Made by a program: the position numbers and the translations under genes | Shown: positions 1,085-6,484 of the stretch, one piece after another | Layout: every line of letters starts with the position of its first letter | Position numbering within the stretch: the stretch's first letter is position 1 | From: Flavipsychrobacter stenotrophus | GTDB lineage: Bacteria > Bacteroidota > Bacteroidia > Chitinophagales > Chitinophagaceae | DNA length: 64,000 bases | Assembly (NCBI RefSeq): GCF_002954265.1 | Contig: NZ_PPSL01000001.1 | Location: 248,001 to 312,000, forward strand | Reading direction: 5' to 3' | The notes under the pieces: model-generated | Told to the model about the DNA's origin: nothing | What the model saw: the letters and a program-made list of their open reading frames with translations, nothing else | Databases searched by the model: none

Positions 1085-2212
1085 CTGTTTATTTTCAAAA
1101 CTGTCCATTATGACCAACCCAAGCTCTCCGTAGTCTTTTCACAAAACAAAAAAGGGTCGCTAAACGAAGTCTATTCACGGAGTTCATCCCGATTATTTCG
1201 GGGTTTGTCCGGCACGGAATCTCCCGATTACCGTAAACAGACAAGATATAACTCGAATTATAAACCTAACTACATTTAGACTACTGCCGGTCAAAAGATA
1301 TCCACATTTTGTTAATACACTTCACCGGTAAACACCAATGCAGTAACTTGCACCCAAAATTATATATTACCATTTCCTAAATCCATACCATCAACATTAG
1401 CCACCACTCTGCCGCCATACACCCAATCCATGCCCCATTACAATTTCATTTCCATTGGGTATCCACCCGGGAGACAAACAACATCAGCAGAACCTAGCTA
1501 TGGCGAAAAATAGCCTGTCCCGCCCTTCAAGCGGTGGTTCAGACAAACCCAATCGGGCATGATCGGGCATAATCCAAAACCACAAACCAATGAAAATCAA
1601 CAAACTACACCATACTAATGCCCGATTACAATTTCATTTTCATCGGGCATTTCCCCCAAACTATCTATTAAAGGAAGATAACGCATCGGGAATCACAGCC
1701 TTCAGTTGATCAGCGTAATCAGGCCTGTCCCGCCCTTCAAGCGCGAGTTCGGACAATCCGATCGGGCATGATCGGGCATAACCCAAAACCACAAACCAAT
1801 GAAAATCAACAAACTACACCACACTAATGCCCGATTACAATTTCATTTTCATCGGGCATTTCCCCCAAACTATCTTTTAAAAGAAGATAACGCATCGGGA
1901 ATCACAGCCTTCAGTTGATCAGCATAATCAAGCCTGTCCCGCCCTTCAAGCTGGAGTTCAGGCAAACTAATCAGCCCGGCTGGCCGCAGTCTGCAGGTAA
2001 AAGCTCTACGCTAAGCAAAATATATAGAATGGATAGTATTAAATGATTTTCATGTTACCTGTTGTTGTTTGATCCCGATCTGTAGTAATGAGATTTGCCC
2101 GATCACTAAATGAGGCAATTACTGTCAAAAACAACCAATTCTCCCCTAATATTGTTAACTTAGTATCAATTGTGAGTGTTTTACCCAACCTTTCTGAGGG
2201 TGAGACGGTCTT
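1085..2212. other. Gene-free accessory region (about 1.1 kb)
   Basis: No open frame with protein character is present on either strand. The region holds a CCCGA-TTATT-TCGGG hairpin near 1192-1203, a reverse-oriented GGGA-loop REP half near 1228-1245, and the 210-bp tandem repeat listed separately. Nothing is recognised between about 1980 and 2200 apart from the promoter of the following sigma factor gene. Confidence 0.6.
1400..1960. repeat. 210-bp tandem direct repeat containing ATCGGGCAT inverted repeats
   Basis: A unit starting with CCTGTCCCGCCCTTCAAG recurs at 1514, 1724 and 1933, a period of 209-210 bp. The two complete units are nearly identical. Each contains ATCGGGCATGATCGGGCAT and then ATGCCCGAT...ATCGGGCAT, which can fold as a hairpin around an AT-rich loop. 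A degenerate half-unit with the same TTACAATTTCATTT core lies upstream at about 1433-1463, so at least one older duplication is visible. No coding potential is seen in the unit. Confidence 0.85.
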
Positions 2213-2243: not shown

Positions 2244-2819
2244 TTGTCTATAGCTTTGGCATATACCGCAACAAGTCAGGTAAGTGAGCTTGAACAACTC
2301 ATTCAGGGGTGTATTCGCAATGAGCGAAGCTCCCAGGAGAAGTTATATCGTTTATTTTACCCCAAAATGATGGCAATGGTACGCCGTTATATAGACCATG
2401 ATGAGCAGGCCGAAGAGGTAATGAACAATGGTTATTTACGTGCGTTTCAAAAATTAAGTCAATATAATTTTCAAGGTTCTTTCGAAGGCTGGTTGCGTAA
2501 AATAATATTTCATGCGGTATCAGACTATGTAAAGCAGAATGCCCGTTATTCTGAAAAAGTAGTACTGGTAGAGAAAGATGAGCTGGTGCATAAGGATCAC
2601 GCCGACAAGCTATACTACGATCAGTTAGTGAAATTGGTGCAGGCATTACCCGATGCTACCCGAACGGTCTTTAACATGTATGTAATGGAGGGTTTTACGC
2701 ACAAGGAGATCGGGAATATGTTGGGGATAAGCGAAGGAACATCAAAGTGGCATCTGTCTGAAGGTAGGCGGCAACTGAAGGAAAAAATTGAAAAATTAGA
2801 ACTGCATTTAAAAGCTTAA
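2244..2819 (+). CDS. RNA polymerase ECF-type sigma-70 factor
   Basis: This 191-residue protein has both ECF domains. Region 2 spans about residues 28-95, with the helix DEQAEEVMNNGYLRAFQKL and the WLRKI segment that contacts the -10 DNA. Region 4 spans about 125-185, with FTHKEIGNMLGISEGTSKW as the helix-turn-helix. It would redirect RNA polymerase to a small regulon when released by its anti-sigma partner. The start is TTG; an ATG start would remove part of region 2. The next gene starts 13 bp after the stop and encodes a membrane protein with a short cytoplasmic N-terminus, the expected position of an anti-sigma factor. Family assignment is secure; the regulon is unknown. Confidence 0.9.
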   Translation: MSIALAYTATSQVSELEQLIQGCIRNERSSQEKLYRLFYPKMMAMVRRYIDHDEQAEEVMNNGYLRAFQKLSQYNFQGSFEGWLRKIIFHAVSDYVKQNARYSEKVVLVEKDELVHKDHADKLYYDQLVKLVQALPDATRTVFNMYVMEGFTHKEIGNMLGISEGTSKWHLSEGRRQLKEKIEKLELHLKA

Positions 2820-2832
2820 AAAATTTATCCAT

Positions 2833-5037
2833 ATGGATAACAACTTTGTAAATATTGATGATCTTGTCAGACAGCGCTTAGGCGGTGGGCAGGAGCCGGA
2901 GCGATCCGGTGCCTGGTCTCGCATGGAGCAGTTGCTGGATAAAGAAGATCGCCGTAAGCCTGTAGGTCTTTACTGGAAGCGTGCCATGAGTTATTGTGGT
3001 GTGGCTATGTTACTGGCAGCGGTAAGTGTTGGGGGGTACGAGGTAACCACGGCATTCAGAAATCCGGGTAGTGCGGTGGCAGGTGCGGCTGAGGGCAATG
3101 CTATTGCCGCAGGTGCAGTGGCTAAGAGCTCAGTACCGGCAACAAATAATATTGCTACCAACGCCGCTGACAACAGCCACAATACTGTTGCAGAACATAC
3201 AGGTCATAAGGCGGGAACAGCTACCGGTAATCACCATGTAGCATCATCGGGCATTGCTGCTACCACTGAGCATGGTGCGGTCAATAACGATATGTTAGCC
3301 CATATGCATAGCAATGATCATTTTGCTTCTTCGGGTACATCATCTGTTCCACATAGTGGCCAGCACCACAAAACTTCGGGTTCGGCTCATATTGACGGTG
3401 GTAAGTTGGCTGGGAATACATCCGGTGCCACTTCTACTGCAAATAATTCACCTAAAAAATCTGATAATCAATTAGTTAATGCAAATTCTACTGTTGCAAA
3501 GAGCAACAGTCCTGCTATTGCTACTGCAATGGATAATGCTGTAGCATCTGTAGCTACAGATAATAGCCCTATAAAGGCCATCCCTAAAAATGACCACATG
3601 ATCGATCATGGTCATGGTACTGCATATGTGAGCAGTCTGAATAAAATACCCCTGAGTGCGGCTACCAATAAGCCTGCTACTATTGTTCCGGTAAAGCCCG
3701 CTGCGGTAACCCCTGTGGTAGCAAACAACACTACTACAGCTCCGTCAGTGGCACGTGCGCCAATGGTAGTAAAGCCTATTCCGGGCAAGAGAGTAATATC
3801 TCGTGTTGTTGTGCAGAAGACAAGAGTTAATGGTGCATCTGAAGGCAGAATTGAAACCCGCCTCGACACTATCTCTATCAACCGCATAACCATGGAGCTG
3901 ACCAAGGCAAAAGAGCCTGCTGTTACAGCAAGTGTTGCAACAACGGGTAAGGGCTCAGCCGATCAGGCAAATAATAATAATAACAATAACACTGTTGCCA
4001 ATAAGACTGCGGGCAGCAAGACTACAGGTAATAAGACTACCGGTAATAAGTCTGGTAATGGGCAATCAGTTAATACCTATGCTGCGCAAAATAATAGCAC
4101 TGCCGGTGTAGCTGCAAATACTACAAATAACAAACAGACCGGCAATGCAGGTTCAAATGCTGCGGGAAATAGTGTTGATAATCAGGTAAATACAGCTGTT
4201 CTTGCTGCTTCTGCAAATGGAGATATTAAGGCACCTTCAGACATCACACCTAATGCGGCTTTGTCTACACCTACAGCGCCACCGCCTGTAGAAAACAAAC
4301 CTGCTGTTGCTAAGAAGAAACACGGATCGAACATAGCCGAGAGCCTCAGCAACATGTTCAATGAAGTGAAGTACAAGTTGGGCGGTGCTCAATTTGCTCC
4401 GGGGCTTACAGCCGGTATCAATGGCACTTTCTTTGGTCCTAACAGCTTCAAGGGCTTCCAGTTTGGTTTTACCGGCTCATTCGAGTTGGATGACAAATGG
4501 AGCTTTATGGGTGAACTGAAGTACTTCCACCGCATGAATAACGACTACTCAATGGATGTTACTTACAACAAGTATCGCCCTATAAGTTCAGGTGGTTATT
4601 ATAAAGATTCTACGCTGGTAAGCTATGGTTTCTCTACATTGCACAGCTTTGAATTACCAATTACAATGAGGTACACAGCAGCTAAGTTCAGCTTCTTCCT
4701 TGGTGGTAACTTCCTGTATACATTGTCAGTAAACACCGGCGGTGCAGAGCAATTGGTAGATCCTACTACGTTACCTGTTGTAGCTACAAACACTGCTAAC
4801 ACCACACCTTCTATCAAGGAAAGTGACTTCGGTGCCCGCTTTGGAGTTGGGTACACATGCGGTATGGCTTATAGGGTATCTCCTAACGTAATGCTCGATT
4901 TCCGCAATGTGCAGACAGTGTGGGATAATGCTAAAGTTGGCGGATCGCAATCAGTATCCAGTCAGCTGTACAAGAGTCCATCACTACAATTCTCCCTATT
5001 CTACCGCTTAGGCGCAGGCAAGAGAGCAGAAGATTAA
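2833..5037 (+). CDS. Inner membrane-anchored protein with long His/Asn-rich linker and C-terminal outer membrane beta-barrel; candidate anti-sigma factor
   Basis: The 734-residue protein has four parts. Residues 1-48 are a short cytoplasmic region of the size of an anti-sigma peptide. Residues about 51-71 form one hydrophobic helix. Residues about 75-505 are a low-complexity linker rich in Asn, Thr, Ala and Ser, with many His between about 115 and 275 and a run of seven Asn near residue 385. Residues about 515-734 look like an outer membrane beta-barrel of the OMP_b-brl type, with alternating aromatic strands such as FKGFQFGFTGSF. It follows the ECF sigma gene by 13 bp, so a role in controlling that sigma factor is a reasonable inference. 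Taken literally, the chain would cross both membranes. It could instead be an ordinary porin-family protein with an uncleaved signal anchor. Confidence 0.7.
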   Translation: MDNNFVNIDDLVRQRLGGGQEPERSGAWSRMEQLLDKEDRRKPVGLYWKRAMSYCGVAMLLAAVSVGGYEVTTAFRNPGSAVAGAAEGNAIAAGAVAKSSVPATNNIATNAADNSHNTVAEHTGHKAGTATGNHHVASSGIAATTEHGAVNNDMLAHMHSNDHFASSGTSSVPHSGQHHKTSGSAHIDGGKLAGNTSGATSTANNSPKKSDNQLVNANSTVAKSNSPAIATAMDNAVASVATDNSPIKAIPKNDHMIDHGHGTAYVSSLNKIPLSAATNKPATIVPVKPAAVTPVVANNTTTAPSVARAPMVVKPIPGKRVISRVVVQKTRVNGASEGRIETRLDTISINRITMELTKAKEPAVTASVATTGKGSADQANNNNNNNTVANKTAGSKTTGNKTTGNKSGNGQSVNTYAAQNNSTAGVAANTTNNKQTGNAGSNAAGNSVDNQVNTAVLAASANGDIKAPSDITPNAALSTPTAPPPVENKPAVAKKKHGSNIAESLSNMFNEVKYKLGGAQFAPGLTAGINGTFFGPNSFKGFQFGFTGSFELDDKWSFMGELKYFHRMNNDYSMDVTYNKYRPISSGGYYKDSTLVSYGFSTLHSFELPITMRYTAAKFSFFLGGNFLYTLSVNTGGAEQLVDPTTLPVVATNTANTTPSIKESDFGARFGVGYTCGMAYRVSPNVMLDFRNVQTVWDNAKVGGSQSVSSQLYKSPSLQFSLFYRLGAGKRAED

Positions 5038-5065
5038 CAGATGATCTGAATGAAATATAAACAAA

Positions 5066-5096
5066 CATCCCGCTTCTTATGGAGCGGGATGTTTTG
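5066..5096 (+). terminator. Rho-independent terminator of the sigma/barrel operon
   Basis: A perfect 9-bp stem CATCCCGCT / AGCGGGATG with an 8-nt loop is followed by TTTTG and then an A-rich stretch. It lies 28 bp after the stop codon of the barrel protein. Confidence 0.8.
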
Positions 5097-5155
5097 TTAA
5101 AAAAAATCAATTCATTTAATTTCCTTTATTTGTAACTTTATCAAAATCTTACACT

Positions 5156-6484
5156 ATGAAAAAGCACACCATACTTGCGGTATTTATGTTGTTTTCCGCA
5201 GCTGCTTTCAGCCAGGCACTTCCATCTTATGTACCAACCGGCAATCTTGAATTGTGGTACTCGTTTAACGGAGGTGCAATTGATGGTAGCGCAAACGCAC
5301 TTAATGGCACAGTAACCGGAGCATCGCCAACCACAGATCGTTTCGGAAGTTCGTTATCAGCCTATTCCTTTAATGGAACGTCAAATTATATAAGCTTGCC
5401 TCCCAGCACATCATTGGATCTAGTAAAAGAGGTGACGATCATGGCGTGGATAAAATGTGACAATTATGGAACAAGCATCAGTCAGATTTTTTGGAGAGGG
5501 AACACCTTAAGTGCCTATGATCCCTACATGCTTTTCATCACCGGCGGAGCTATCAGATTCAGAAGAAATGTGGCCACGGGTACGGCAACATATGATGCAT
5601 CTATTCCCGTATCAATAGTTGATACATCAAAATATCACATGATTGTAGGTACGTTTAGTATTCTCGATGATTCCATGAAAATATACTACGACGGAAAACG
5701 ATATGCCGCAGTGTATGCTCCTACGCCAATTGCTTATTCTACTACTGGTTTTTGGAATATGATCGGTGCGGTTGACTACGGTACCTGGCAGTTTTATAAA
5801 GGAAAGATAGATGATGTGGGTGCTTGGAATAGAAGATTGTCTGATTGCGAGATAAGTAAGTTATACTACGCAAATAATAGCCTGATTATGGGTAATCCTT
5901 CCAGTACGTATGTTGCTTCCGGAGGAACAGCGACATTTAGTATCGCAGATTCGGGAGGTATTGCAACTTATCAATGGCAGGTGAATGCTGGTGCAGGTTT
6001 TACGGATGTTATTAGCAGTGGTTCATATTCAGGATCAAATACAATGACATTGACAATAAACCCCGTAACAGCTGCAATGAACGTGAATTCTTATCGCTGT
6101 ATTCGTGATGCAGGTGCTTGTATAGATACTTCAGTTTTTGCAGTATTGACAACCGATACGACGAGTACACCAGACACGACCACCACAACTGATACGACAT
6201 TGTCTGTTAGCACTCAAGGTAATAGTGATGATCTTATGATTGTCCCTAATCCAGGGAATGGGTCTTTTCGCTTTTCTGGAATGTTAAGTAATGGTCTGAC
6301 AGAAATAGGTAGTATTGAGATTTTAGATTTGCTTGGGCGAAGAGTTTATGAATCTGAAATACATATTGATAATGGAACGATAACAGGCGCCATCAACCTG
6401 AATGGTACGTTGAATCAAGGTTCTTACATTGTTGTCATACATTCCCCGCATACTTATAAAACATACAAACTTGTGGTTTGTTGA
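5156..6484 (+). CDS. Secreted LamG-domain protein with T9SS type A sorting domain
   Basis: The N-terminus is a Sec signal peptide ending FSQA. Residues about 30-235 match a concanavalin-like LamG/laminin-G-3 fold (LELWYSFNGG, FNGTSNYISLP, VTIMAWIKC, KIDDVGAWNRRLSDCEI). Residues about 240-325 look like an Ig-like repeat, followed by a Thr/Asp-rich linker (DTTTTTDTT). Residues about 360-442 are a type A T9SS C-terminal domain: MIVPNPGNGSFRF, then IEILDLLGRRVYE and a terminal TYKLVV strand. The protein should be exported by Sec, moved across the outer membrane by T9SS and anchored or released after cleavage of its tail. LamG domains usually bind carbohydrate, but the ligand is not evident. The gene is monocistronic. 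Confidence 0.88.
   Translation: MKKHTILAVFMLFSAAAFSQALPSYVPTGNLELWYSFNGGAIDGSANALNGTVTGASPTTDRFGSSLSAYSFNGTSNYISLPPSTSLDLVKEVTIMAWIKCDNYGTSISQIFWRGNTLSAYDPYMLFITGGAIRFRRNVATGTATYDASIPVSIVDTSKYHMIVGTFSILDDSMKIYYDGKRYAAVYAPTPIAYSTTGFWNMIGAVDYGTWQFYKGKIDDVGAWNRRLSDCEISKLYYANNSLIMGNPSSTYVASGGTATFSIADSGGIATYQWQVNAGAGFTDVISSGSYSGSNTMTLTINPVTAAMNVNSYRCIRDAGACIDTSVFAVLTTDTTSTPDTTTTTDTTLSVSTQGNSDDLMIVPNPGNGSFRFSGMLSNGLTEIGSIEILDLLGRRVYESEIHIDNGTITGAINLNGTLNQGSYIVVIHSPHTYKTYKLVVC

Follow-up and report, generated by a model that had tools for sequence, protein, structure and literature searches.

Here, we describe a two-gene operon in a 64,000-nucleotide stretch of the Flavipsychrobacter stenotrophus genome (hereafter the window; the surrounding genome comprises 5.43 Mb over 21 contigs), in which the gene for an extracytoplasmic function (ECF) sigma factor is followed, after a gap of 13 bp, by an open reading frame (ORF) of 734 residues, as the initial annotation of this DNA had placed them. 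That annotation had also proposed that the second protein is a single polypeptide reaching from the cytoplasm to the outer membrane and read directly by the sigma factor, a proposal now supported, by sequence and by analogy, through its probable membership of the published Dma family. The N-terminal profile, the sigma phylogeny and the predicted architecture together support its identification as a Dma/Reo-type anti-sigma factor. The architecture is already known and is not new; what is new here is the promoter conserved ahead of the operon and a lead towards PorP/SprF genes of the type IX secretion system (T9SS) and, more weakly, a conserved island in the linker of the protein.

Architecture of the sigma factor and its partner

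The sigma factor is of the ordinary ECF type, matching Pfam Sigma70_r2 and Sigma70_r4_2, with TIGR02937 above its cut-off and TIGR02985 below it. Its partner, scored at full length, matches no Pfam family at E 10 (RskA_C included) and no NCBIfam family, while its last 239 residues, scored separately, match OMP_b-brl_2 at 3.8e-7. AlphaFold2 models this C-terminus as a barrel with a predicted local distance difference test score (pLDDT) of about 90, and OmpA, NspA, OmpX and OmpW are among the top Foldseek matches to the model. The helix, linker and C-terminal barrel of the initial annotation are recovered by structure prediction, the linker as disordered and the barrel confidently. Forty-eight residues, including eight K/R and nine D/E, precede the predicted membrane helix, whose best 19-residue hydropathy window (residues 57-75) has a modest Kyte-Doolittle (KD) value of 1.50; in this region the AlphaFold2 model, built from 35 sequences, has helices at residues 8-16, 27-41 and 44-75 with pLDDT of about 50-66.

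Comparison with a relative from the same genus (L094) gives identities of 98% over residues 1-48 and 92% over residues 49-74, falling to 38% over residues 75-316, before 60% over residues 317-352, 49% over residues 353-500 and 86% over residues 501-734. At the sequence level, the N-terminal tip and the barrel are conserved and the tether drifts. In the same pair, synonymous divergence (pS) is 0.30-0.33 in the sigma gene and tip (2244-2976) and 0.64-0.87 in the linker and barrel; recombination and synonymous constraint are candidate explanations for the lower values.

Table 1. Positions of the operon and its predicted parts in the window
Feature	Position	Strand	Basis
ECF-type promoter of the operon	2183..2211	+	-35 ACCCAACC (2183-2190), -10 GTCT (2208-2211)
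ECF sigma factor gene	2244..2819	+	TTG start, conserved; Pfam/NCBIfam matches, alignments; groups with Dma-linked and Das2-orthologue sigmas
Dma-type anti-sigma factor gene (supported), 734 residues	2833..5037	+	ORF, hydropathy, N-terminal profile, locus survey, AlphaFold2 model
Predicted cytoplasmic anti-sigma domain, residues 1-48	2833..2976	+	W28 and L35 invariant in 19 sequences; profile; conservation against L094
Predicted transmembrane helix, residues 49-75	2977..3057	+	Hydropathy, AlphaFold2
Disordered linker, predicted periplasmic, residues 76-500	3058..4332	+	Low pLDDT, low identity
Linker island, predicted beta-hairpin, residues 319-355, contains LDTISI	3787..3897	+	Motif count, profile, pLDDT about 45-60
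Helix 500-516 and predicted outer membrane beta-barrel, residues 501-734	4333..5034	+	OMP_b-brl_2, AlphaFold2, structural matches
Terminator-like inverted repeat and T-rich tract 3' of the operon	5066..5098	+	Judged by eye

Membership of the Dma family and its spread

The founding paper of the Dma family is reportedly that of Pardue et al. 2024. Family members are described as joining an anti-sigma domain to a C-terminal barrel through a transmembrane helix and a tether that is disordered, as lying beside ECF21 sigmas and as occurring in Bacteroidota only (PMC13088901). Dma1 and Dma2 of Bacteroides thetaiotaomicron, with their sigmas Das1 and Das2, share both this four-part architecture and the adjacent sigma gene with the window protein. 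The published gene order is das2-dma2-DUF4943 (PMC13088901), whereas in the window a LamG gene comes next.

The link to Dma2 was drawn through a profile, A3, covering about residues 1-80 and built from 19 sequences drawn from the family and order to which the window belongs, with no Bacteroides rows among them. Searched against 395 Bacteroidota genomes at E 1e-3 per genome, with at most 14 candidates scored in each, A3 matches in at least 87. DUF4943 is present in three of the 395 (G322, G330 and G192), and in G322 (E 1.3e-5) and G330 (E 4.3e-4) A3 matches the ORF between the sigma gene and DUF4943; both ORFs have a hydrophobic helix, as judged by eye, and C-termini that match OMP_b-brl (2.4e-5 and 9.1e-7). 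In G192 the DNA ahead of DUF4943 showed neither a sigma nor a Dma, and A3 has no match there. A3 finds Dma2 orthologues that gene order identifies independently, which supports placing the window protein with Dma. A survey of 30 of the 87 genomes, with one best match taken from each and the window counted among them, showed a sigma-like ORF directly 5' of the match every time, and at five of these loci the partner is short (225-263 residues) with no barrel seen. Both OMP_b-brl_2 and OMP_b-brl match 19 of 29 family C-termini at E 1e-3, the set comprising 24 from the surveyed loci, the window protein, two further proteins of its genome (L041 and L053) and the two Dma2 orthologues.

The sigma factors group in the same way. 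In a tree of 52 sigmas, 30 that are linked to barrel proteins (the window's included, with the barrel class assigned from length and by eye), eight with barrel-less partners and the two Das2-orthologue sigmas cluster with support of 99/97, and 12 other sigmas of the window's genome fall outside; because the set was recruited in part through the N-terminal profile, the tree, which omits the PF08281 matches L049-L052, cannot exclude further sigmas from the cluster. The window sigma adjoins its partner gene as in the published Dma/ECF21 pairs, and its grouping with Das2 orthologues makes it a candidate ECF21 sigma. A second known system is similar by description: an anti-sigma factor of Phocaeicola is described with the same architecture from cytoplasm to outer membrane barrel (PMC9308784), and the pair, later named EcfO-Reo (PMC13114119), thus shares with the window, in Phocaeicola and Bacteroides fragilis, a predicted cytoplasm-to-barrel anti-sigma factor.

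Further examples lie in the window's own genome, which has 22 PF08281 matches (20 above cut-off) and in which A3 matches four partners. Besides the window protein these are L053, a second barrel-ended anti-sigma paralogue of 944 residues (2414-5248, - strand; OMP_b-brl_2 3.2e-6; linker about 600 residues by rough measure); L041, of 410 residues, whose C-terminus is beta-rich by eye and matches DUF2490 alone, below cut-off; and L036, of 255 residues with no barrel seen. By eye, the tips of L033 and L037 also resemble that of the window protein. The initial annotation had held that this layout is not the default in the genome, since the second sigma pair of the window has an ordinary RskA-type partner; the latter is right (45872-46729 matches PF10099 at 9.8e-19) and the layout is indeed not the default, but L053 and L041 rule out its being unique. 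Other sigma-adjacent proteins with a helix and a barrel, which the annotation had suggested looking for, are thus found both in this genome (L053) and at the family loci. This anti-sigma type also has a sister form, in which the short tip and helix resemble those of the window protein and no barrel was seen (L033, L036 and L037, with L070, L078, L085, L090 and L092 elsewhere).

Self-promoter and candidate regulon

ECF promoters typically pair an AAC-type -35 element with a GTC-type -10 element. At the operon this takes the form CCAAC-N18-GTCT, which starts 58-62 nt 5' of the TTG start at every one of 30 loci, the window included, with a spacer of varying sequence; nine named loci outside that set add seven that carry it upstream and two without the region, a total of 37 of 37. 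A near form occurs in 2 of 29 phylum loci, and the paralogous sigmas L041 and L053 lack the strict motif upstream. Expression of das2 is reported to go up on deletion of dma2 in B. thetaiotaomicron (PMC13088901), and the conserved motif has the appearance, in sequence, of the expected mark of autoregulation.

The same motif recurs elsewhere. Across 11 genomes of the genus, ACCCAAC-N18-GTCT has 55 matches, against 14 for the reversed pattern. Eight of the 55 are the sigma operon itself and ten, from seven genomes, are followed on the same strand, after 117-221 nt, by a PF11751 (PorP/SprF) match, one of them in the window's genome (G000:C21:369265); TIGR03519 confirms three of the motif-linked PorP/SprF proteins. 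None of the 14 reversed matches lies within 400 nt of a PF11751 match. In ten genomes of other genera, CCCAAC-N18-GTCT has 65 matches, against 28 reversed, of which three end 121-134 nt before a PorP/SprF match (two in G011, one in G015); two PF11751 rows below cut-off were not counted. In G036 (Taibaiella soli, which has the pair, L120) the motif was seen at the sigma operon and at no PorP/SprF gene. Chance would give about 0.012 such pairs in the genus and 0.016 in the other genera, although the binomial P is inflated because the motif-bearing genomes are related. This pattern hints at control of T9SS by the window sigma. A regulon read from the motif in the window's genome alone was dropped, with seven matches against three reversed.

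Eight proteins with T9SS sorting tails also lie downstream of the motif. Type A sorting tails number from 109 to at least 150 per genome across the 11 genus genomes, and for some cargo genes the motif is more than 250 nt distant or within a 5' ORF extension, so that T9SS cargo as part of the regulon is no more than suggestive. Four of ten scanned downstream proteins have no sorting tail and are neither PorP nor DUF2911; L156, read at full length as L222, gained a tail. DUF2911-like genes lie downstream of the motif in three genus genomes (L148, scanned; L161 and L167, by eye).

If the PorP/SprF genes do belong to the regulon, it differs from those described for related pairs. Published Dma phenotypes are vesiculation and the expression of polysaccharide utilization loci (PMC13088901), while the described EcfO-Reo regulon includes NigD lipoproteins. 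A third known system is SigP of Porphyromonas gingivalis, which is reported to bind the porP promoter and to drive T9SS genes (PMC4800418), and so resembles the candidate role of the window sigma as an ECF sigma acting on T9SS genes. SigP, however, acts with a two-component system, PorXY; the term anti-sigma is absent from the available text of that paper, and the proposed SigP motif differs from CCAAC-N18-GTCT. The SM6 promoters of Flavobacterium psychrophilum are also ECF-type, with a CGT box, and lie at T9SS genes and at one sigma/anti-sigma pair, their control by an ECF sigma being inferred (PMC9723704); they share with the window motif an ECF-type form at T9SS genes, but in the source as available they are not assigned to a sigma, nor is the architecture of the anti-sigma factor described. 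In searches of open-licence PubMed Central literature, ECF control of T9SS genes linked to a barrel-ended anti-sigma factor was not met.

The linker, a proposed mechanism and its alternatives

The linker, put at about 430 residues in the initial annotation, measures about 425 and is predicted to be disordered, with AlphaFold2 pLDDT below 50 at residues 76-318 and 356-499; in the one Dma2 orthologue sizeable by rough measure it is roughly 127 residues. Family linkers range from about 115 residues to 750; the lower end comes from a rough heuristic (minimum 114) that measured 20 of 26 proteins, gave no value for six and looks to overestimate L072, L077, L086 and L089. An extended chain covers about 0.35 nm per residue, which would put the far side of a 25 nm periplasm within reach of the shortest linker too.

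Within this drifting segment lies the island, made up of a K-rich start, a strand-like segment and LDTISI, and placed anywhere from adjoining the barrel to about 175 residues ahead of it. Identity to the window protein in 20-residue blocks of the linker is 0.06-0.26 outside residues 321-360, 0.15 in 321-340 and 0.36 in 341-360. Within the window's own family, to which the examination was confined, all 38 linkers contain DT[ITVLF], compared with 42% of shuffled linkers. An initial count of the island gave 29 of 29, but its start-motif filter had excluded ten sequences, mostly more distant relatives (L095, L098, L107, L120, L121, L123, L124, L127, L129 and L130). A profile trained on 14 islands outscores all shuffles for 16 of the 24 linkers held out and fails for L099, L120-L124, L127 and L130, and between the window and L097 the island is 26% identical, against 31-34% for the flanking linker. 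The island was therefore dropped as a universal feature of the linker; it is conserved in sequence among nearer relatives, real yet partial.

We consider it probable that the window protein is a Dma-type anti-sigma factor that sequesters its sigma and senses the envelope, with the freed sigma driving its own operon and T9SS genes of the PorP/SprF family. Briefly, residues 1-48 would keep the sigma encoded by the preceding gene at the inner membrane, where the helix would anchor the protein, with the long linker spanning the periplasm and the C-terminal barrel inserted in the outer membrane. Failed barrel assembly or a disturbance of the envelope would then loosen the N-terminal hold, and the freed sigma would transcribe its own operon from CCAAC-N18-GTCT and a regulon that may include the PorP/SprF outer membrane proteins. 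Envelope damage is proposed as the trigger because EcfO-Reo is described as induced by toxins that act on the envelope, a BamA inhibitor among them (PMC9308784, PMC13114119). Computation supports the architecture, the family membership, the conservation of the self-promoter and the occurrence of the motif ahead of PorP/SprF genes, while sigma binding, topology, trigger, release and the reading of the motif by the window sigma are what we infer.

Several observations weigh against this account. On the protein side, the N-terminus of the full-length AlphaFold2 model reaches a pLDDT of only 50-66, the predicted helix is weakly hydrophobic, and in a single-chain AlphaFold2 model of the sigma with the N-terminus the latter falls to pLDDT 32-42, leaving the interface unusable. 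On the regulon side, the ten PorP/SprF matches stem from related genomes (7 of 11), only one of the six PorP/SprF genes of the window's genome has the motif, and no motif-PorP/SprF pair occurs in 4 of the 11 genus genomes or in 8 of the 10 from other genera. Four of the seven matches in the window's genome lie within or antisense to ORFs and one has no close downstream ORF, and outside the genus the excess over the reversed control is confined to 65 against 28. Autoregulation alone ties the window sigma to the motif, and sites of this kind, such as a looser one at L033, may be read by other ECF sigmas.

A bolder version, possible but doubtful, would close a feedback loop on T9SS, in which the sigma drives PorP/SprF barrels and T9SS cargo, the barrel of the anti-sigma factor reports on barrel assembly or function, and the island is a periplasmic contact that relays the signal.

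The alternative that survives best, if an unlikely one, is periplasmic cleavage of the protein, whether constitutive or triggered by a signal, which would leave the barrel and the anti-sigma part as separate pieces. The sigma would then be freed through regulated proteolysis of the piece in the inner membrane, and not through a pull or a conformational signal passed along an unbroken tether. Many membrane anti-sigma factors act through regulated proteolysis, and a partly conserved island in an otherwise unconserved linker could be a site for a protease or a partner; yet the island is predicted, with low confidence, as a beta-hairpin, and its distance from helix and barrel is highly variable. 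A further reading would make the N-terminus a requirement for sigma activity, as a FecR-like activator or a chaperone of a pro-sigma, and not a plain inhibitor. FecR-type membrane partners do activate their ECF sigmas, and one FecR-like partner (L054) is apparent by eye in this genome. We regard this as improbable, as disruption of the anti-sigma factor is reported to activate the sigma in Phocaeicola (PMC9308784), and loss of the anti-sigma does so for Dma1 and Dma2 (PMC13088901).

Metal sensing by the His-rich part of the linker, suggested in the initial annotation, is very improbable. The His concentration itself is as described, with 16 of the 17 linker His at residues 115-275, but strong enrichment is confined to the closest relatives: the peak per 160-residue linker window is 16 in the window protein and 15 in L094, whereas the remaining eight in the list of ten sequences reach 7-11. 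Linker-wide His content is 0.9-4.2% across 29 sequences, and with few His in most relatives a His-rich linker was ruled out as a family trait. That the helix is a cleaved signal sequence, on a protein that is only an outer membrane barrel trailing a long tail into the periplasm and lies beside a sigma gene by coincidence, would suit the modest hydrophobicity (KD 1.50) but is scarcely credible and was rejected, since the charged 48-residue segment before the helix ranks among the best-conserved parts, short barrel-less proteins beside the same sigma type carry this N-terminus too (at 5 of 30 loci, and in L036 by profile and L033 and L037 by eye), and a sigma-like ORF precedes it in 30 of 30 loci.

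Read as a Dma-type anti-sigma factor, the window protein would extend this design from gut Bacteroides to Chitinophagaceae and suggest that a single genome can carry several partners of this type. The promoter motif renders the regulon testable, and the PorP/SprF link, if true, joins two questions about Bacteroidota, namely what dual-membrane anti-sigma factors sense and how T9SS is kept in step with outer membrane state. The island offers a small mutable element for probing how a disordered chain might pass a signal across the periplasm.

Labels among the named relatives include Flavipsychrobacter, Taibaiella and Chitinophagaceae bacterium, the closest relative (L095) being a metagenome-assembled genome labelled Flavipsychrobacter stenotrophus with 92% identity to the window protein across residues 1-381. 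Beyond the terminator-like hairpin, the next gene (5156-6484) encodes a LamG-domain protein that carries a type A sorting tail for T9SS. Just 5' of the operon, at 1546-1963, two copies of a 209-nt direct repeat share 94% identity and contain GCCCGAT...ATCGGGC palindromic units, with a degenerate copy at 1418-1462.

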